Assembly (NCBI GenBank): GCA_029255525.1
Contig: JANLJK010000310.1
Coordinates: 1 to 34,384, forward strand
DNA from: Pseudolabrys sp.
Lineage (GTDB): Bacteria; Pseudomonadota; Alphaproteobacteria; Rhizobiales; Xanthobacteraceae
Length of the DNA stretch: 34,384 bases
Reading direction: 5' to 3'
Under the pieces are notes generated by a model. The model was not told the origin of the DNA. It saw nothing but the letters and a program-made list of their open reading frames with translations, and did not search any database. Positions within the stretch are counted from its first letter, which is position 1, and every line of letters starts with the position of its first letter. This document shows positions 3,252 to 24,186 of the stretch, piece after piece. A program made the translations under genes and the position numbers.

Positions 3252-4514
3252 CTACCACGCCTGCGCGCTGGCCCGGTCGAACAGGCCGGTGGATGCGGAT
3301 GCGTAGCGGCCGGAATCGCGGCGGCCCTTGCCGCGGGCCACCAGTGCTGGCGGCGTGCCGTTCATGCTCGCCACCACGACCATGCGATCGACCTCGCCGT
3401 CGAGGAAGGCCTGCAGGAACTTGTCGTAATCCTTGAAGGACACGCAGCCGTTCGACTGGCCGTTGGGGCCGAGCATATAAGTATGCGCCAGGATGCCGTC
3501 GCGGCCGTGCATCTTGTCTTCGTCGACAGGATTGAGACGGATGGCGCGCACGCCGTGGAACAGCTTCTCGCGCATCGTCAGCTTGTAGACGTTCGGCGGC
3601 GTCGCCCCGCGCATGCGCACGTGGATGTAGCGCGGATCGTCCATCTTCTCGCCGAGGCCGGAATGCGCCTCGAGCTTGTCGCCGTTGGGCAGATACACGG
3701 TCCGCGCCGAGATGTCGTAGACGGCGGTGCGGGCGTCCCGTTCGATGAGCTCCGGGCCCTTGTTATGAACCGGCTGCACGACCGCGGGCTTCTCCACGAC
3801 CGGCGGGGGCGGCGGCGGTGCGACCATGGCGACCTGCTGCGGCGCCTCGGCCGGCGGCCGCACGGCTTCACGCACGGCTGGATAAGGCCGCGGCAGCGGC
3901 ACCATGGCCGTTGCTTGTTCCGGGGCGGCCTTCACCGGCGCCGGGCTCACCGTCACAGGTGGCGGCAGGCTGGCGAGCTGCATTGATGTGGTTTGTGCAG
4001 AGCTGGCCTGATCCAATTGGATAGACTTGATATTTTCCCGTTGAGTGGGGCGTGGCGGGGCCCGTGTCGGTAGCGGTACGGGGACAGGCGCAGCCTCCAG
4101 AGCCGGCAGGGATGCCAGCGCCCAGCGCGCGCCGAAGCTCTCGCCAGCGCCTCTGACGCTTTCGGTCCCTTCGGCAACATCGGTCGCTACCGGTGCTGGC
4201 GGGAAGGCGTCAGGGGCGGCGGCCAGGATCGGGCCGTATTGGCCGAGGGCAAACGTGCCCTGCCCCAATGCTCCCAGACCCATGGCGGCTTGCGTACGGA
4301 GCTGCGGATGGGCGCTGATGGCGTTATTGGCGATCTTGAGGGCGGCGACCGTGGTTCCGACGACCAGCACGGAGCCGATGGCGAGGATGGCGACCGAGGC
4401 GATGAGGCCGTCGCCGAGCGCGCGCAGCGCCGGCAGAATCCGGCGATAGTCACCGAGTGAGATACGACCGTCGAAAGAAGTGACGTCGCAGAACGCCGCG
4501 GCCGTATCCGACAT
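3252..4514 (-). CDS. DUF2778-type L,D-transpeptidase-like protein, membrane-anchored
   Basis: 420 aa. Residues about 36-60 form one hydrophobic segment after a short cytoplasmic N-terminus, followed by a Pro/Ala-rich linker (roughly 95-250) and a C-terminal DUF2778 domain. The catalytic motif is visible as AHTYMLGPNGQSNGCVSF, giving a His344-x12-Cys357 pair in an NGCVS context, the equivalent of the L,D-transpeptidase SxGC motif. DUF2778 includes the Tlde1 toxins of type VI secretion, but the long membrane-anchored form with a proline-rich spacer is widespread in Rhizobiales and is better read as a housekeeping peptidoglycan cross-linking or editing enzyme (inference). No immunity gene or secretion gene is adjacent. 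No strong Shine-Dalgarno precedes the ATG. Confidence 0.8.
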   Translation of the reverse strand: MSDTAAAFCDVTSFDGRISLGDYRRILPALRALGDGLIASVAILAIGSVLVVGTTVAALKIANNAISAHPQLRTQAAMGLGALGQGTFALGQYGPILAAAPDAFPPAPVATDVAEGTESVRGAGESFGARWALASLPALEAAPVPVPLPTRAPPRPTQRENIKSIQLDQASSAQTTSMQLASLPPPVTVSPAPVKAAPEQATAMVPLPRPYPAVREAVRPPAEAPQQVAMVAPPPPPPVVEKPAVVQPVHNKGPELIERDARTAVYDISARTVYLPNGDKLEAHSGLGEKMDDPRYIHVRMRGATPPNVYKLTMREKLFHGVRAIRLNPVDEDKMHGRDGILAHTYMLGPNGQSNGCVSFKDYDKFLQAFLDGEVDRMVVVASMNGTPPALVARGKGRRDSGRYASASTGLFDRASAQAW

Positions 4515-4654: not shown

Positions 4655-4906
4655 TTATTCCGGCGCGACTTCAAGGATCTTCTGCGCGCTCTTTTCGGAA
4701 TCGTAGATCGAAACTTGAACGATCGGATAGGCCTTCTTGATGGCGAGGCCGGCGGTCTCGGCCTCTTCGGCTGTGTCGAAGGCCTTCTTGGTCTGGCGGT
4801 CGACCTGGAGCCGGAAACGCCCGAGCGCTGGACGGCTTTGACCGAGCTTCGGCGGCGCGACCTCGTCGGCGGGTTCCTTGCTCTTCACCGTGATCTTCGC
4901 GGCCAT
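4655..4906 (-). CDS. Small conserved-looking hypothetical protein (83 aa)
   Basis: I do not recognise a named family. The track ORF begins at 4975, but ATG 4906 (MAAKITVKSKEPADE) has AAGGAG 7 nt upstream and is the better start. The product is a soluble, charged protein with no signal peptide or membrane segment; its pattern of short beta-like and helical stretches (FRLQVDRQTKKAFDTAEEAE) resembles a small alpha/beta fold. A hairpin TGCCGG-N9-CCGGCA lies in its 5' leader. It sits between the sensor kinase and the L,D-transpeptidase on the same strand, with gaps of more than 100 nt on both sides, so it is probably a separate transcript. Confidence 0.7.
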   Translation of the reverse strand: MAAKITVKSKEPADEVAPPKLGQSRPALGRFRLQVDRQTKKAFDTAEEAETAGLAIKKAYPIVQVSIYDSEKSAQKILEVAPE

Positions 4907-5017
4907 GCATGTGCTCCTTAGGGCGTGCCGGACGGAAAGCCCGGCATTCCCTCCATATAAGCGCGCCGCCGGCATCTGGCGAGCGCGCCGTAGCGACCGG
5001 ACTGTGGCGAATGTATC

Positions 5018-6709
5018 TCAGGCCCGGGTGTCCGCCGGGGCTTTGGCGCCCGCGGCCAGGCCTTGCTGCCTCAAGGGAAATTCGCAGCGGAAGATCAGCC
5101 CCTCGGCCCGGAAGTCGAACGTCGCCGTGCCCTTGAGCTCATGACGGATGCTTTCCTCGATGAAACGGGTGCCAAAGCTCTTTCTCTCTGGTGCCGTCAC
5201 CGGCGGCCCGCCCTGCTCGGCCCACTGCGCCGTAACAGTCGCGCCGCCCGGCGCATGCGGCTGCACCGACCATTCGATGGCGACGCTCCCCTCCGGCTGC
5301 GTCAGCGCGCCGTATTTGGCGGCGTTGGTGTAAAGCTCGTGCAACACCATGCCGATGGTGAGCGCGGCGCGCGGATAGAGCGGCACCGGCGGGCCTTTCG
5401 CCGCAATCCGTCCGGGGCCGGAAACGCTGACGCAGACTCGCTGCACCAGTTCGGCCATGTCGGCTTCCACCCACTCGCCTTCGCTTAAGGCATCGTGCGC
5501 CTGCGACAGCGCGACCAGACGGCCGGAAAAGGTCTCGAAGAACGCGGTGAAATCGTCGGCCTTGGTCGCGCTCTGGCGCGCGATCGACAGCACCGTGGCG
5601 AGCGAGTTCTTCACCCGGTGATTGAGTTCCTTGATCATCTGGCTCTTGGTCTCCTCGTCGCGGATAAGCGACGCAGAGGCGCTGGCCAAGGTCTCGCTCA
5701 CGGCATTGAGCTCGACGATGCCGGTATTGAAGCTCGCCACGCGTTCGCGGCGGCTCAGCGCCAGGGCGTTGTCGCGCAGACGCCAGATCGGCGGCGTGAC
5801 GTAACGGCTGTAGAGCACGGCGAACAGCAGCGAGCAGATCAAGCCAAGCGCGCCGGCGGCGCCGACTGCGATGGCCGCCTGCCGCACCGACTGATTGACG
5901 GCGGAGACCGGCATCGCGGTGATCACCGTCCAGCCGGAGAGCGGCGATTTGTAATAGCCGTCGATCACAGGTGCGCCGTCCAGCGTGGTCGAGCTGACCA
6001 CGCCTTCGGTGCCCGTGAGTTTCTGGATGAAGCCGTCGCTGGCGCTGCGGCCGACGAAGTTCTCGTGGTCGCGGGTGCGGGCGATGACGCGGTGGTTGCG
6101 GTCGATCAGGATGACCAGCCAGTCCTGGCTGACGGCGCTGCTTTGCTGGATCAGCCGCAGGAATGTCTCGGGCGGGATCGCGATGTTGAGAAAATGCGCG
6201 GCACCCTCATACATGACCGGGACGTTGAGCATCACATAGCGCTGGCCCGTCGACGCGCCGGTGTAGAGGTCGGAGATGACCGGCTGCATGGTGCGCAAGG
6301 CGGCCTCGTCCGAGGCGTTGAGCACCGTGTCCTTGGTCTGCGACAGCGGCTCGCCCCAGGCGCGCGCGGTATTGAGCAATTGCCGTCCGTCGGGGCGGCG
6401 CAGGCCGACCAGGCTGCCCGGGAACATGCCGGCGACACGCGACGCGTGCTGATAGAAAGCGGCGAGATCGCCCTGCGCCAGCGATTGGGCGTAGGCCAAA
6501 GTCCGTAGCGTGCTCAGGCCGCCGGTGATCTCGCGGTCGATGCTGCTGGAGAGGTCCTTGGCGGTGTTGACGAGGTCGTGCTCGGTCGCTGCCCGCTCGG
6601 AGTTGACATAAAGGACGGCGAGCACGGCACCGGCGAGGATAAAGGGAACCGCCGTGAGGGCGCCGAGAATGCCGAGATGGAACCGAAAATTATGCTTGCG
6701 GCGGCGCAT
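5018..6709 (-). CDS. Cache-domain sensor histidine kinase, HWE family
   Basis: 563 aa. TM1 is about residues 12-34 and TM2 about 278-300, bracketing an extracytoplasmic double-Cache-like sensor of about 240 residues. A linker follows, then a kinase core. The phospho-acceptor is H364 in ELNHRVKNSL; the N box is HELYTNAAKYGAL (H457, N462); the WxE of the G1 region is QWAEQGG (W496, E498). The conserved His of the N box with WxE defines the HWE class, common in Rhizobiales and often linked to general stress or light responses. No response regulator is adjacent, so it is an orphan here and its output is unknown. The ligand is also unknown. Confidence 0.9.
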   Translation of the reverse strand: MRRRKHNFRFHLGILGALTAVPFILAGAVLAVLYVNSERAATEHDLVNTAKDLSSSIDREITGGLSTLRTLAYAQSLAQGDLAAFYQHASRVAGMFPGSLVGLRRPDGRQLLNTARAWGEPLSQTKDTVLNASDEAALRTMQPVISDLYTGASTGQRYVMLNVPVMYEGAAHFLNIAIPPETFLRLIQQSSAVSQDWLVILIDRNHRVIARTRDHENFVGRSASDGFIQKLTGTEGVVSSTTLDGAPVIDGYYKSPLSGWTVITAMPVSAVNQSVRQAAIAVGAAGALGLICSLLFAVLYSRYVTPPIWRLRDNALALSRRERVASFNTGIVELNAVSETLASASASLIRDEETKSQMIKELNHRVKNSLATVLSIARQSATKADDFTAFFETFSGRLVALSQAHDALSEGEWVEADMAELVQRVCVSVSGPGRIAAKGPPVPLYPRAALTIGMVLHELYTNAAKYGALTQPEGSVAIEWSVQPHAPGGATVTAQWAEQGGPPVTAPERKSFGTRFIEESIRHELKGTATFDFRAEGLIFRCEFPLRQQGLAAGAKAPADTRA

Positions 6710-6911
6710 CGGGTGACTGGGACGTCTCTGGTGCCGTCAGCGGCCCCGCGTCGAACTTAGAGGAAGCGCGGCGAAAGTCCAAAGCGGCCTGTATGAGGCA
6801 TGCTGAAACTTTTGCCGCAGGCCGCGCGGGCGGCGGTGCGATGTCGCCTTGTGGAGGACCTGCGTTCTCCGTCACCCTGCGGCTCCTGATTCCCGTTACC
6901 GAGGATGGACA

Positions 6912-7187
6912 ATGCCGGCAATGCTGAAGACGACCGCCTTGGCGGGGCTCTTGTCCCTCTTTATGTCTTTCGTTCTTTCCGGACTGTTCGCCCCCACCCC
7001 GGCGGCCGCCGCCGCGATGCGCTGCAGCGGCGAGCAGACCGCCTGCATCGCCGCCTGCAAGAAGAGTTCGCCGGCCGCGGCACTGTCGATGTGCATCACC
7101 AATTGCGGCCAGCGTCAGGCCATTTGCATGAAGACGGGCTGCTGGGATAGCGGCACGGAGAAATACTGCGGGCTGTTGCGCCAATAG
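6912..7187 (+). CDS. Small secreted 8-Cys protein with twin CX3C motif
   Basis: 91 aa from ATG 6912, which has GAGGA 6 nt upstream; the track start at 6849 has no such support. Residues 1-35 form a signal peptide (MPAMLKTTALAGLLSLF..., ending in an Ala run). The mature part is only about 55 residues with eight cysteines spaced C-x6-C-x3-C-x11-C-x3-C-x6-C-x4-C-x8-C. The CX3C-x11-CX3C core would suit a disulfide-linked helical hairpin in the periplasm. I recognise no named family. It stands alone between divergent or convergent neighbours. Compare the 8-Cys protein at 23830-24186. Confidence 0.75.
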   Translation: MPAMLKTTALAGLLSLFMSFVLSGLFAPTPAAAAAMRCSGEQTACIAACKKSSPAAALSMCITNCGQRQAICMKTGCWDSGTEKYCGLLRQ

Positions 7188-7214
7188 AGCGCGGGGACCA
7201 GGCCGAACGTCAGT

Positions 7215-8183
7215 TCACGGCAGCCCGCCTATATGCGCGGCCGGTTCGTCCATGGATGGGTCCCAACAAACGACGCGGTTTCTTCCTCGTGTCTTGGCGA
7301 CGTAGAGGGCTTTGTCGGCGCGGTCTATCGCGACCTCGACGGACTTATGCGCATCCAATGCCGCGAGCCCGACCGATACCGTGACGAAGAAATCTCCTTT
7401 GCCCTGCGCTTCATGCGGCAGCGACGCGAGCTCTTCGCGCAGGCGGTCCATGATGACGTGCGCGGTTTCCACGGGGGTGTCTGCCAGACACAGCAGGAAT
7501 TCCTCGCCGCCGTAACGGAAGATCTTATCGTAAGGGCGCAGATGGTTCACAATATAGTGCGCAAAGTCTATCAAGACCTTGTCGCCAGCCAGATGACCGT
7601 AGCTGTCATTGACGGATTTGAACTGGTCCAAATCGATCATCGCAATCGAACAGGAATGGTCGCGCCTGACGAATTCGTGCTGTTCACGCAGCTTGGTCAG
7701 CATTTCGATGCGATTATTGACGCCCGTCAACGGGTCGAGATTGAAGAGCGCGCCTTCCATCTCGCGCTGAACTGTCACGATTTCCAATCGCATGCGCTTC
7801 AACGCGGTCAGGAAGCGCTCGAAGTCCTTGACCGAGATTGGCACGCCGTCAGCGGAGGCGCGCAGCAGACTTGCTGCATACTGATGCATGCGCTCGTGCT
7901 CGATGCCGATCTCAACGAATCCTGGATGGCGTTCGAGGCCTGCGATGCCGGATTTATAATACCATTGTCCGAACCGGCAGGTTCGATGCGCGTTCTGGCT
8001 GGCGTCGCGTTCATCCGGCGCCAATCGGCAGATCAAGGTGCCGTAAAGCGTTTCGGTCCATTGGTCGTGGTTGTACAAAGCCTGTTCGAGTTCCTTCAGC
8101 GTGGTACGCATCTGCTCGTCGGACATGTGGGGAAGCGGCATGGGGACACTCGTCGGAGGCAGTACCGGAAGCGTTCGGTTCAT
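7215..8183 (-). CDS. Diguanylate cyclase with N-terminal zinc-binding CZB domain (DgcZ-like)
   Basis: Makes c-di-GMP from two GTP. Numbering from ATG 8183 (322 aa), the CZB domain spans about 30-110, with candidate zinc ligands H39, C69 (TCRFGQWY), H96 and H100 (EHERMH). The spacing 30-27-4 equals that I recall for E. coli DgcZ (H22, C52, H79, H83). The GGDEF domain spans about 150-310, with YGGEEF (215-219) and an inhibitory site RPYD (206-209) exactly five residues upstream. Zinc would be expected to inhibit the cyclase, as in DgcZ. The start is uncertain: the track uses GTG 8264, which lacks a ribosome site; a start at MSDEQM also keeps both domains. Cytoplasmic, no membrane segments. Confidence 0.9.
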   Translation of the reverse strand: MNRTLPVLPPTSVPMPLPHMSDEQMRTTLKELEQALYNHDQWTETLYGTLICRLAPDERDASQNAHRTCRFGQWYYKSGIAGLERHPGFVEIGIEHERMHQYAASLLRASADGVPISVKDFERFLTALKRMRLEIVTVQREMEGALFNLDPLTGVNNRIEMLTKLREQHEFVRRDHSCSIAMIDLDQFKSVNDSYGHLAGDKVLIDFAHYIVNHLRPYDKIFRYGGEEFLLCLADTPVETAHVIMDRLREELASLPHEAQGKGDFFVTVSVGLAALDAHKSVEVAIDRADKALYVAKTRGRNRVVCWDPSMDEPAAHIGGLP

Positions 8184-8521
8184 CCCGAAATGACCTGCCG
8201 CGCTTGGGATGCCGGTCCGGCGAGGATGCGCCCCCTCCCTTCCCATGGGGAAGTAATCTTGCACCGCAATAATTTTTAGAAATCCGTCACGCGAATCGCT
8301 TAGCCTTTGGGCATGGCGGTTCGTACCTTACGGATCGAGAGGCAAGCTGGTCAGTCGGGACCTACACGACCCCGGACGCGCGTTTGCCTGACACCGCCAC
8401 AAACCCCGCGACAACTGCCGTTCTTGTACCCGCGCGCTCGATCTCGGCTTGACCCGAGTTCTGGTGGCGTGGGCCGTTGGCGTATGCACTTCACATGCTT
8501 TCTATCGAAAGGAGTCGGCCT
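8184..8521. other. Divergent intergenic region between CZB cyclase and phoH
   Basis: 338 nt between two divergent genes, so it should hold both promoters. It has an AT-rich patch (aataatttttagaaatccg, about 8270-8288) and a TTGACC at 8449-8454 on the plus strand without a well-placed -10. Apart from the phoH ribosome site at its right end I see nothing else convincing. Confidence 0.4.
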
Positions 8522-12866: not shown

Positions 12867-13246
12867 GGAAACCTGGAAGCGCGATCGAGCGGGCACCTGC
12901 GATGCGCAGGTCTTGGCATTCCAATGCAAGGCAGTGGGCGCGCGCGGCGCCTGCTTCCGCGCCGTTGTAAGGGACAACTCTTACTAAAACTACGCTGAAG
13001 TATTGTTAATTGGTGCTGTCAGGAAGTGATTACCTGTCGTTGCGCCTTTTGCGTGTGCCCCGACAGGCTGCACCTGATTTGCTGGCGGTGTGACGGTCCG
13101 CCGGCCACCGAAAGCCTGCGATTGAACCAAAGGCGGCTAAGTTCCGACCAAGCCGTGGGTGGCCAATGACGGCCGGCCGAAGAGACGACGCCAGCCGCGG
13201 CATCGCTGCAGCGGCGGTGTGCGATGGCATTTTGGAGGACGTGACG
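12867..13246. other. Divergent intergenic region between membrane cyclase and module-repeat protein
   Basis: 380 nt. It holds a good minus-strand promoter (listed separately) near an AT-rich core at 12975-13020, and the GGAGG ribosome site of the rightward gene at 13233-13237. The 100-nt leader of the cyclase contains GC-rich inverted repeats but no recognisable riboswitch. The minus ORF over 13019-14026 is a shadow. Confidence 0.4.
12981..13009 (-). promoter_or_regulatory. Candidate sigma-70 promoter of the membrane diguanylate cyclase
   Basis: TTAACA (13004-13009), 17 nt, TAGTAA (12981-12986) on the minus strand, in the most AT-rich stretch of the intergenic region. It would start transcription near 12974 and leave a leader of about 108 nt before ATG 12866. 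Confidence 0.45.
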
Positions 13247-15100
13247 ATGAGAGGCTTGGCGCGGGTTTCGACCCTGGCGATTGTGTGCGCGATGGGCTGG
13301 GCGTTTACCCTGCCCGCGTCGGCGTTGGAGATGCTGGATACCAGCCGGCTGCCGCGCGTCACCGGCGCCAAGGACTCCTTCGCCAGCCCGGCGACCACGA
13401 TCTATTTCACGCCGGATACGGTCGCGCGCACGGCCGAGGCCACGCGCAAGGCGCTCGCGGCCGGCGGCTGGCAGCTTTATAGCGCGCCGCATACCGCGCG
13501 TGCGCAAGTGCCGACCATGGAGATCATGACCTTCAAGAAAGGGCCGCAGGCGCTCAACGTCTACATCACGCAGGCGCCGGCGCGGGGCAATGCGACCAGT
13601 GTGAGCTATACGGCGATCACGCTGTTGAACGATCTGCCCTTCCCGGCCGGCGCGGCCGATATCGAATTCGATCCGAACCGCCCGCTGCTCACTTGCGTCA
13701 GCGCCGAACCGGTCGACCAACTGCTCGCTTATTACCGCAAGGAGCTCGGTGCGCGCGGCTGGTCGCTGTGGTCGGCCAAGGCTGGCAAGCTGCCGGACGG
13801 CGGGCCCAATGGCGAGCTCACCGAAAAAGGCGCCTACGGCTATTACATCCGCGAGAACCAGACGCCGCTTATTCTGGTGCTGCAGCGCGTCGCCGATGGC
13901 CGCACCAAGATCGACATCAAGAGCGTGCCGGCCAAGGTGCTCGCCGATGCGCGCGAAGCCGAGCTCAACCGCGACAAGCCGAAGACCGTGGCGGAGCCTG
14001 CGCCCGCCCCGGCAAAGCCGCAGCACACCGCCGCCGACGACATGGCGGATCAGATGATGAAGCAGGCGCAGGACATCATGCGTCAGGCGACCGCCGATGC
14101 GTTGTCGGGCGCGAAGGCGCCGACACCGAAGCCGGCGACGGAACCCGCCGCGCCATTACGTGCGCGCGTCGACAGCGATGTGCCAGTGCCGATGCCGGAG
14201 AATGCCGACGACATCGATTACAATGCCGCCGATGGCAAGCTCGACTATGAGAGCACGGCAAGCGTCAGGTCATTGGCGGCCTTCTATCGCGAGGCGATGA
14301 AGGCAGAGGGCTGGCGCGAGCATAAGACGGTCATCAACGGACCGAAAATGACCGTGCTCGACTTCTCCAAGGCCGACAAGAAGATCTCGTTCACGCTGAT
14401 GCAGATGGGCGCCAGCACCAATGTGAAGGCGGACGGCTCCGGCCTCATCTCGGCGGCAGCGTCCGCAAAGAAGGATGACGCCTCTGTTGCGGTGAGCGCC
14501 GCGCCGGCTTCCGCGGAGGATCTGACCGCCGAAGAATCCAGCGGTCTACCGGTGCCGAAGCGGCGCACCTTGACACAGAGCGAGCGCACGCCGTTCCGTC
14601 AGCAACTCACCGTCAATATTCCGCTCGAACTTTCGGCCGTGCTCGGCTTCTACCGCCGCGAGCTCGAAAAGCGCGGCTGGAAAGAGGACGTCAAAGGCGC
14701 CGTCATCGCCGCCGACAAAGCGAATGTGGCTTTCACGACTCCGGAAGGCAGCGCCGTGCTGAAGCTTGCCCGCAAGGACAATGAGACGACCGTCACGCTT
14801 CGTGTGAGGAACCCGGAAGCCGCCAAGAAAGCGGGCGTGTTGCCGAATGCCGGCCAGACCAAGGTGCTGTTCGGCAACATGACTGCAAGCGAGGCCTCGA
14901 TCACCATCGACAACAAGACCATCAAGATCGGCGCCGGTGTCGGCGCTAAGAAGCCGGACGGCCCGACGCTCGACCTCAAGCCCGGCAAGTACAAGGTCAC
15001 GCTGAAGGGCGGCCAAAGCGAAGAGATCGACGTCGCGGCCGACGAGGCCTGGGGACTTCTGGTCGGGCCCGGCGGCGTGCTGCCGTTGAACGTCTATTGA
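13247..15100 (+). CDS. Secreted protein of four repeated 'YR-x-E-L...GW' modules plus C-terminal beta domain
   Basis: 617 aa from ATG 13247, which has GGAGG 9 nt upstream; the track ORF is 27 residues too long. A signal peptide covers residues 1-27 (cleavage near ASA-LEM). Four divergent copies of a module follow, each with a helix ending in a Gly-Trp: ATRKALAAGGW (GW 74-75), AYYRKELGARGW (171-172), AFYREAMKAEGW (355-356) and GFYRRELEKRGW (477-478). Each is followed by beta-strand-like sequence. A charged Ala/Pro-rich linker (about 230-310) separates copies 2 and 3. The last 100 residues (KVLFGNMTASEASITI...KPGKYKVTLKGG) look like a PEGA-type or similar beta sandwich. No enzyme motif is seen; a periplasmic binding or structural role is inference. 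Confidence 0.8.
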   Translation: MRGLARVSTLAIVCAMGWAFTLPASALEMLDTSRLPRVTGAKDSFASPATTIYFTPDTVARTAEATRKALAAGGWQLYSAPHTARAQVPTMEIMTFKKGPQALNVYITQAPARGNATSVSYTAITLLNDLPFPAGAADIEFDPNRPLLTCVSAEPVDQLLAYYRKELGARGWSLWSAKAGKLPDGGPNGELTEKGAYGYYIRENQTPLILVLQRVADGRTKIDIKSVPAKVLADAREAELNRDKPKTVAEPAPAPAKPQHTAADDMADQMMKQAQDIMRQATADALSGAKAPTPKPATEPAAPLRARVDSDVPVPMPENADDIDYNAADGKLDYESTASVRSLAAFYREAMKAEGWREHKTVINGPKMTVLDFSKADKKISFTLMQMGASTNVKADGSGLISAAASAKKDDASVAVSAAPASAEDLTAEESSGLPVPKRRTLTQSERTPFRQQLTVNIPLELSAVLGFYRRELEKRGWKEDVKGAVIAADKANVAFTTPEGSAVLKLARKDNETTVTLRVRNPEAAKKAGVLPNAGQTKVLFGNMTASEASITIDNKTIKIGAGVGAKKPDGPTLDLKPGKYKVTLKGGQSEEIDVAADEAWGLLVGPGGVLPLNVY

Positions 15101-22798: not shown

Positions 22799-23833
22799 GT
22801 GACATCGAACCTGACGGCGCTCGTTCTGGGCGCGACCGGCGGTATCGGCGGCGAGGTCGCCCGTCTGCTGGTGGCGCGCGGCTGGACGGTGCGCGCCCTG
22901 CATCGCCAGCCCGAACGGGCAAAGGCCGGAGGCCCCGTCGGCGTCACCTGGATCGCCGGAGATGCCATGGCCGCGGCTGACGTTGCCACCGCGGCGAAGG
23001 GCGTCTCGGTCATCGTCCATGCGGTCAATCCGCCCGGCTACCGCAACTGGGGCGAATTGGTGCTGCCGATGCTCGACAACACCATCGCCGCCGCGCGCGT
23101 CAACGGTGCCCGCATCGTGCTGCCAGGCACGGTCTACAATTTCGGTCCCGATGTCTTCCCGGATGTTACCGAGCAATCGCTCCAGCATCCCCTCACCCGC
23201 AAGGGTGCGATCCGTGTCGCGATGGAGCAGCGTCTGCGCGATGCCTCGACGCGCGGCGCCAAGGTCTTGATCGTGCGCGCCGGTGATTTCTTCGGACCGC
23301 GCGCCGCCAATAACTGGTTCTCGCAAGGCCTGGTGAAGCCCGGCCGGCCGGTGCGCAGCATCACCAATCCCGGTCGCGCCGGCGTCGGCCATCAATGGGC
23401 CTATCTGCCCGACGTGGCGGAGACGATGGTGCAACTCCTGGCCCGCGCCGACGCGTTCGACGATTTCGCTGTGTTTCACATGCGCGGCCATTGGGACATC
23501 GACGGCACAGAAATGATCGCGGCGATCCGCCGCGTGGTCGGCCAGCCGGCGCTGAAGATCCGCGCCTTTCCCTGGCTCATGGTCCGCCTCGCCTCGCCCT
23601 TCGTGCCATTGTTCCGCCAGCTGTTGGAGATGCGGTATCTCTGGGCGACGCCGCTGCGCATGGACAATGCGCGCTTGGTGGCGATCCTTGGCGTCGAACC
23701 GCACACGCCACTCGACGAGGCCGTCCGCGCGACGCTCGCAGGCCTTGGTTGTCTTCCGGCATCCAGCGAGCTTGCGCCAGGTCACGTCGGCCATGATGTC
23801 GCGACCGACGCCGAACGTCGCGCCGCCTCCTAG
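22799..23833 (+). CDS. NAD(P)-binding Rossmann-fold (SDR/NmrA-like) protein
   Basis: 344 aa from GTG 22799, with GGAGG 6 nt upstream and the family-typical beginning MTSNLTALVLGATGGIGGEV. The track start is a TTG at 22763, which also has a GGAGG, so the choice is not certain. The dinucleotide motif GATGGIGG is at 11-18. The protein resembles extended/atypical SDRs (NAD-dependent epimerase/dehydratase or NmrA-like); the YxxxK pair is not clear, which fits the atypical groups. The substrate is unknown. It is divergent from the LysR gene and its stop codon shares a CTAG with the convergent 8-Cys gene. Confidence 0.88.
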   Translation: MTSNLTALVLGATGGIGGEVARLLVARGWTVRALHRQPERAKAGGPVGVTWIAGDAMAAADVATAAKGVSVIVHAVNPPGYRNWGELVLPMLDNTIAAARVNGARIVLPGTVYNFGPDVFPDVTEQSLQHPLTRKGAIRVAMEQRLRDASTRGAKVLIVRAGDFFGPRAANNWFSQGLVKPGRPVRSITNPGRAGVGHQWAYLPDVAETMVQLLARADAFDDFAVFHMRGHWDIDGTEMIAAIRRVVGQPALKIRAFPWLMVRLASPFVPLFRQLLEMRYLWATPLRMDNARLVAILGVEPHTPLDEAVRATLAGLGCLPASSELAPGHVGHDVATDAERRAAS

Positions 23834-24186
23834 AAGTCGAAGATGTCCGGGACCAGCGGTCCACCGCGCGTACGACATTCGCGCTGGCAATAGCGGTCGC
23901 ATCTGTCGGTGAGCTTGAGACAGCGTCCTTGCGGATCCGTCTCGAGGCATGCGGCCTGCCCCCAGGTACAATAGGACTGGCAGTTCGACCAGCAGGTGTT
24001 CGACGCAAAGACCGACTGCGAGCGCGATGTGCGCGGAAACGGCAGTTCGTTGCTATGCCGATTGTAACGCCAGGTTTCCGAACGTGTCGTGGCCGTCGAC
24101 GGATCGCCCGCGTGGCGGCTATCGGCGGCTTGGACGGAACCCGCGAGCGTCAGGAATAGCGATAGGGCAATCAAGACACGAGACAT
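23830..24186 (-). CDS. Small secreted 8-Cys protein with mirror-symmetric Cys spacing
   Basis: 118 aa from ATG 24186 (CAGGAAAA upstream); the track start at 24240 is longer by 18 residues without support. A signal peptide (MSRVLIALSLFLTLAGSVQA) is followed by a polar spacer, then a Cys-rich domain of about 40 residues with spacing C-x3-C-x3-C-x6-C-x8-C-x6-C-x3-C-x3-C, which reads the same in both directions. This suits two antiparallel helices joined by disulfides. I recognise no named family. The stop overlaps that of the convergent SDR gene at CTAG. Confidence 0.78.
   Translation of the reverse strand: MSRVLIALSLFLTLAGSVQAADSRHAGDPSTATTRSETWRYNRHSNELPFPRTSRSQSVFASNTCWSNCQSYCTWGQAACLETDPQGRCLKLTDRCDRYCQRECRTRGGPLVPDIFDF

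Follow-up and report, generated by a model that had tools for sequence, protein, structure and literature searches.

Plant alpha-hairpinins, among them VBP-8, Nigellin-1.1, and the vicilin leader peptides, are secreted peptides with a CX3C-xn-CX3C arrangement of cysteines and two antiparallel helices held by nested disulfide bridges, and they have been defined by a 4C motif of CX3C-x4-20-CX3C with a helix-loop-helix structure (PMC11591084). A twin CX3C motif and an oxidised helical hairpin are also found in the mitochondrial small Tims (zf-Tim10_DDP, PF02953), and CHCH (twin CX9C) proteins form helical hairpins with paired disulfides. At the level of regulation, a -10-like element closely follows GANTC in alphaproteobacterial cell cycle promoters under CcrM and GcrA control; in Caulobacter, those cell cycle transcription starts that have GANTC between -35 and -10 fall into a single timed cluster (PMC4287350). 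Here, we describe gene X, located in a 34,384-nucleotide stretch of Pseudolabrys sp. DNA (the window), whose product is predicted to share several of these protein features and whose upstream region resembles such promoters. We consider it an evenly balanced proposition that X is a cell-cycle-timed periplasmic envelope protein, a disulfide-stapled helical hairpin with CcrM/GcrA-timed expression.

Features of the locus are collected in Table 1. The open reading frame of X, which ends with its stop codon at 7187, contains a further in-frame ATG at 6921 as an alternative start and translates as MPAMLKTTALAGLLSLFMSFVLSGLFAPTPAAAAAMRCSGEQTACIAACKKSSPAAALSMCITNCGQRQAICMKTGCWDSGTEKYCGLLRQ. Its eight cysteines (C38, C45, C49, C61, C65, C72, C77, and C86) are separated by gaps of 6-3-11-3-6-4-8. 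We confirmed that the gene is real and that its first six cysteines have the 6-3-11-3-6 spacing given in the preliminary description. X is single copy in the source genome. An antisense open reading frame (6690-7184) was rejected as a gene and is only a shadow, since it is the X frame that is conserved. In all homologues that can be read from an ATG, the N terminus includes a comparably strong hydrophobic stretch, and the mature proteins all carry a charge of +4 to +7. The exported miniprotein comprises ~56 residues, and the earlier view of X as a secreted 8-Cys miniprotein holds, given the signal peptide and eight conserved cysteines. When the mature sequence was shuffled, a palindromic six-Cys run appeared in 1.3% of shuffles, as did a twin CX3C with a loop of 7 to 16 residues (also 1.3%). 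The single sequence alone is therefore weak evidence for either pattern; the cysteine pattern is firm because it is conserved across relatives.

Table 1. Coordinates of gene X, its product, and associated features in the window
Feature	Coordinates	Strand	Basis
Gene X coding sequence, 91-aa precursor	6912..7187	+	Open reading frame; homologues; GAGG 7 nt before ATG 6912
Sec signal peptide of X, h-region LAGLLSLFMSFVLSGLFA, cleavage ~AAA/AM, no lipobox	6912..7016	+	Sequence; homologues
X helix 1 (predicted), residues 35-52, C38/C45/C49 on one face	7014..7067	+	AlphaFold2, pLDDT 79.4
X helix 2 (predicted), residues 55-75, carrying C61/C65/C72	7074..7136	+	AlphaFold2
X C-terminal beta-hairpin (predicted), residues 77-86 (CWDSGTEKYC)	7140..7169	+	AlphaFold2; conserved tail
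GATTC, a CcrM site (GANTC), 24 nt before the X ATG	6888..6892	+	Upstream comparison
TTACCG, at the position of the putative -10-like TA element	6896..6901	+	Upstream comparison; inferred
Degenerate CtrA-type box TTAAACGGCTGTAA, ~100 nt upstream of the Tlde1_dom gene	4617..4630		Matches full boxes of relatives
Tlde1_dom (L,D-transpeptidase-like; PF10908) membrane-anchored protein	3252..4514	-	Domain match; neighbour in relatives
Other 8-Cys secreted protein, comparator, separate family	23830..24186	-	Homologues; profile-profile comparison; model

A profile search identified a strong X orthologue in 31/44 Pseudolabrys genomes (E values of 1e-30 to 3e-19). By scanning GTDB representatives, we fetched 22 X loci from Pseudolabrys and other Hyphomicrobiales, and the spacing 6-3-(10 or 11)-3-6-4-8 was present in all 22. 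The middle loop measured 10 residues in 15 loci and 11 in the other 7, as it does in the window; a loop of exactly 11 is not the family norm. X is under purifying selection, with dN/dS of 0.04 to 0.50 in comparisons of close pairs and of 0.26 between the window and L093, its nearest relative. A broad profile matched 21/150 genomes in the same family, 14/398 in the order, and 4/299 in the phylum, counts in which members can be missed because only some candidates were scored per genome and in which the weakest matches may be chance. Moreover, the relatives are linked by phylogeny and cannot be counted as independent events. The columns without variation in 15 diverse members were the eight cysteines and the G and W of a GCW motif. 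Distant relatives kept all eight cysteines and the GCW...C tail, with a central loop of ~7 to 11 residues and, in several, CX4C in place of the second CX3C. This variation makes the exact twin CX3C core a feature of the near family only.

Pfam, NCBIfam, and PDB sequence searches with X and its homologues returned nothing above noise, and none of the libraries searched describes the family. No match to X was found in a single-sequence scan of genome contigs or in a plasmid collection. X and its relatives make up a family of exported, disulfide-rich miniproteins of bacteria that has no name. An X-like 8-Cys module was also observed at the C-terminal end of a 542-aa open frame (L042) in an 8-Mb genome of the same bacterial family (G024), possibly a fusion of the module to a larger protein.

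The mature X sequence from the window and 22 aligned relatives were used as input for AlphaFold2, with X modelled as a monomer (mean pLDDT 79.4, pTM 0.62, 11 residues at 90 or above). The model contains helices at residues 4-21 and 24-44 and strands at 46-48 and 53-55, with cysteines at 7, 14, 18/30, 34, 41/46, 55 (model numbering). Two antiparallel helices and a C-terminal beta-hairpin support the helical-hairpin reading of X, and the paired helices anticipated for it are present in this model (pLDDT 79). By helix geometry, spacings of 7 and 4 put three cysteines per helix within ~40 degrees of one face. Spacing symmetry, from which the pairing was deduced, would join C49-C61, C45-C65, and C38-C72 (model 18-30, 14-34, and 7-41) as a three-rung ladder, and a fourth bridge, C77-C86 (model 46-55), would close the beta-hairpin. 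Eight invariant cysteines within 56 residues might instead bind metal, which we regard as very unlikely: X has no CXXC or CXC pairs, the symmetry of the spacing is what rungs joining two helices would give, and the protein is exported to an oxidising compartment, with DsbB encoded in the source genome. The most conserved surface of the family is the C-terminal hairpin (GCWDxG..YCGL), which, as we tentatively propose, would bind a target in the envelope while the helices serve as its scaffold.

A PDB fold search with the model gave weak matches only (Foldseek E values of 5 to 9, not significant). Of 13 matches, 4 belong to plants, either alpha-hairpinins or leader peptides of seed proteins related to them (2nb2, 6o3q, 9q1l, and 7lxk); the best of these 4 was 6o3q (TM 0.73; 0.8 A rmsd over 38 columns). 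Together with the positive mature charge and the CX3C-x11-CX3C core with predicted helix-loop-helix, which fits the 4C motif (PMC11591084), these matches speak for an alpha-hairpinin-type role, in which X would be secreted as a cationic peptide that acts against microbes or inhibits enzymes. However, we consider this reading unlikely, since the Foldseek values are not significant, X is single copy here, vertically inherited, and under purifying selection, and immunity or export genes are absent nearby; furthermore, four extra cysteines in other spacings exclude X under the published criteria (PMC11591084). The resemblance is an analogy of design, structurally weak, and not evidence of descent.

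The preliminary description had likened X to the small Tims. The twin CX3C (C45-C49 and C61-C65) and the helical hairpin stand as points of resemblance, but kinship does not. Neither PF02953 nor PF06747 in Pfam matched any of 25 X homologues at E ≤ 1, and PF02953 matched neither window X at E ≤ 10 nor the 15 diverse members. A PDB sequence search with X had no match, and no Tim or CHCH protein was among the 13 fold matches. Judged by these comparisons, X is not kin of the mitochondrial small Tims, and the likeness is at the level of design only. A periplasmic holdase chaperone of small-Tim type would be in keeping with the 11-residue loop between the CX3C pairs, the oxidising compartment, and the helical hairpin; nevertheless, we rate it as extremely unlikely, as the X helices are just 18 and 21 residues long, two further disulfides are predicted, Tim sequence or fold matches are absent, and the second CX3C becomes CX4C in some relatives in the wider family.

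The window also encodes a second 8-Cys secreted protein (Table 1), and the two had been suggested to represent one class of exported helical-hairpin proteins. Profile-profile comparison ruled out this kinship (hhalign probability of 0.5 to 1.8%). The cysteine frameworks differ (6-3-11-3-6-4-8 in X versus 3-3-6-8-6-3-3 in the second protein), as does the order of elements, which is helix-helix-hairpin in X and helix-hairpin-helix in the second protein (the latter from a single-sequence model with a pLDDT of 66). As had been expected, the second protein also has two predicted helices in that model. This protein is conserved in 37/44 Pseudolabrys genomes, and its mirror-symmetric framework is invariant in every relative read. 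At best, the two proteins are independent inventions that share exported paired helices but no ancestry. GANTC was absent from the second family at a comparable upstream position. We also observed that this family has conserved LPFPR, CDRYCQR, and GGP stretches, that the 6C motif of plant alpha-hairpinins is similar to its outer CX3CX3C pairs, and that its gene lies 17 to 60 kb from X in several assemblies.

Thirteen of the 22 fetched relatives share one syntenic slot, in which the Tlde1_dom gene is the immediate divergent neighbour of X. All 13, and the window, have GANTC 17 to 24 nt before the X ATG; when every ATG in these loci is considered, only 1.4% have it at that distance. Across 11 representatives, the GANTC columns were invariant or 10/11, whereas the preceding 22 nt had only 36% identity. 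Slot relatives show GANTC, ~3 nt, a T[AT]-type -10-like element, and then ~6 to 8 nt before the ATG. In most of them no Shine-Dalgarno sequence is evident, and this arrangement suggests that X transcripts may be leaderless in slot relatives. The window differs, with 10 nt from the -10-like element to the ATG, plus GAGG. Both GcrA (E = 1e-55) and a RAMA-domain CcrM-type methylase are encoded in the source genome, as in CcrM/GcrA-regulated Alphaproteobacteria, and the RAMA model matched only Caulobacter among 14 control genomes. No ECF/EcfG-type promoter motif (GGAAC-N-GTT) was found. Because most relatives outside the slot lack GANTC, the control of X is clade-specific. This link to the CcrM/GcrA cell cycle circuit offers a direct route to function and is the most useful new lead from the analysis.

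Within the slot, metG usually lies further left, and phoH lies on the other side of X, sometimes after a GGDEF gene. The window represents the same slot, but an HWE histidine kinase gene and a 106-aa open reading frame (no Pfam match) separate Tlde1_dom from X, and a GGDEF-CZB gene follows X; these three genes, at 4655-8264, do not lie around X in the compared relatives. Divergent adjacency in the 13 loci, with an intergenic regulatory region in common, raises the prospect that the Tlde1-domain L,D-transpeptidase-like enzyme has in X its own periplasmic partner, inhibitor, or immunity protein. We find this unlikely: the arrangement is not operonic, the two genes are 2.3 kb apart in the window, and neither the remaining 9 fetched loci nor the 20 genome stretches from outside the slot have a Tlde1_dom gene close to X. 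Since metG and phoH of the slot are conserved too, shared descent explains the linkage. Beyond the slot, neighbours are unrelated and vary by clade (PfkB kinase, alpha/beta hydrolase, MsrB, PepSY-TM, IGPS, and glycosyltransferase), with no conserved X partner. Shared descent is the best reading of the adjacency, although X may be a partner. A Tlde1 partnership was rejected as a general explanation of X because the linkage is confined to one syntenic slot; the constant adjacency of an effector-immunity pair was not seen (13/22 loci, none outside that slot). Two further observations concern the surroundings: the window has no sign of a type VI secretion context for the Tlde1_dom gene, and it contains a 644-aa open reading frame without any Pfam match at 13166-15100 (+).

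The Tlde1-X intergenic region contains a full CtrA-type box (TTAA-N7-TTAA) in 7 relatives; related loci totalling 176 kb have 8 of these boxes, of which 7 are located there. Its distance is approximately constant to the Tlde1_dom gene and not to X, suggesting that the box probably serves Tlde1_dom first; in the window, 2.3 kb now separates the box from X. Boxes of the CtrA type have also been described ahead of L,D-transpeptidase genes in Agrobacterium (PMC11527210).

We infer with good support that X is oxidised in the periplasm, forms a stapled hairpin, and is timed by CcrM and GcrA. CcrM methylation and GcrA acting on GANTC between -35 and -10 would probably time X transcription, after which the Sec machinery would export the precursor and the DsbA/DsbB system would oxidise it. 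The oxidised protein would then fold as the antiparallel hairpin with its three rungs, the fourth bridge closing the beta-hairpin that is probably the binding site. X would most likely function while cells grow and divide, in their periplasm or envelope, and perhaps together with the adjacent Tlde1-domain enzyme. A more specific version, in which this Xanthobacteraceae/Hyphomicrobiales family of disulfide-laddered miniproteins is a CcrM/GcrA-timed envelope effector whose conserved beta-hairpin would bind an L,D-transpeptidase-like enzyme of peptidoglycan or restrain it, seems to us rather improbable. If the envelope role is true, X would be a rare cysteine-stapled helical hairpin in alphaproteobacterial growth or division.

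Compared with described CcrM/GcrA promoters, the putative one of X is absent outside one syntenic clade. Unlike CHCH proteins, X has CX6CX3C pairs with 10 residues between the outer cysteines rather than CX9C, and it has no PF06747 match; relative to the small Tims, it has extra cysteines, a signal peptide, and shorter helices. The nearest solved folds are those of the alpha-hairpinins, to which sequence kinship is undetectable; X is bacterial, and beyond their design it has an outer CX6C cysteine pair, a predicted disulfide-closed C-terminal beta-hairpin, and a GCW/YCGL signature. Its predicted fold thus parallels the eukaryotic twin-CX3C hairpins, apparently by convergence.
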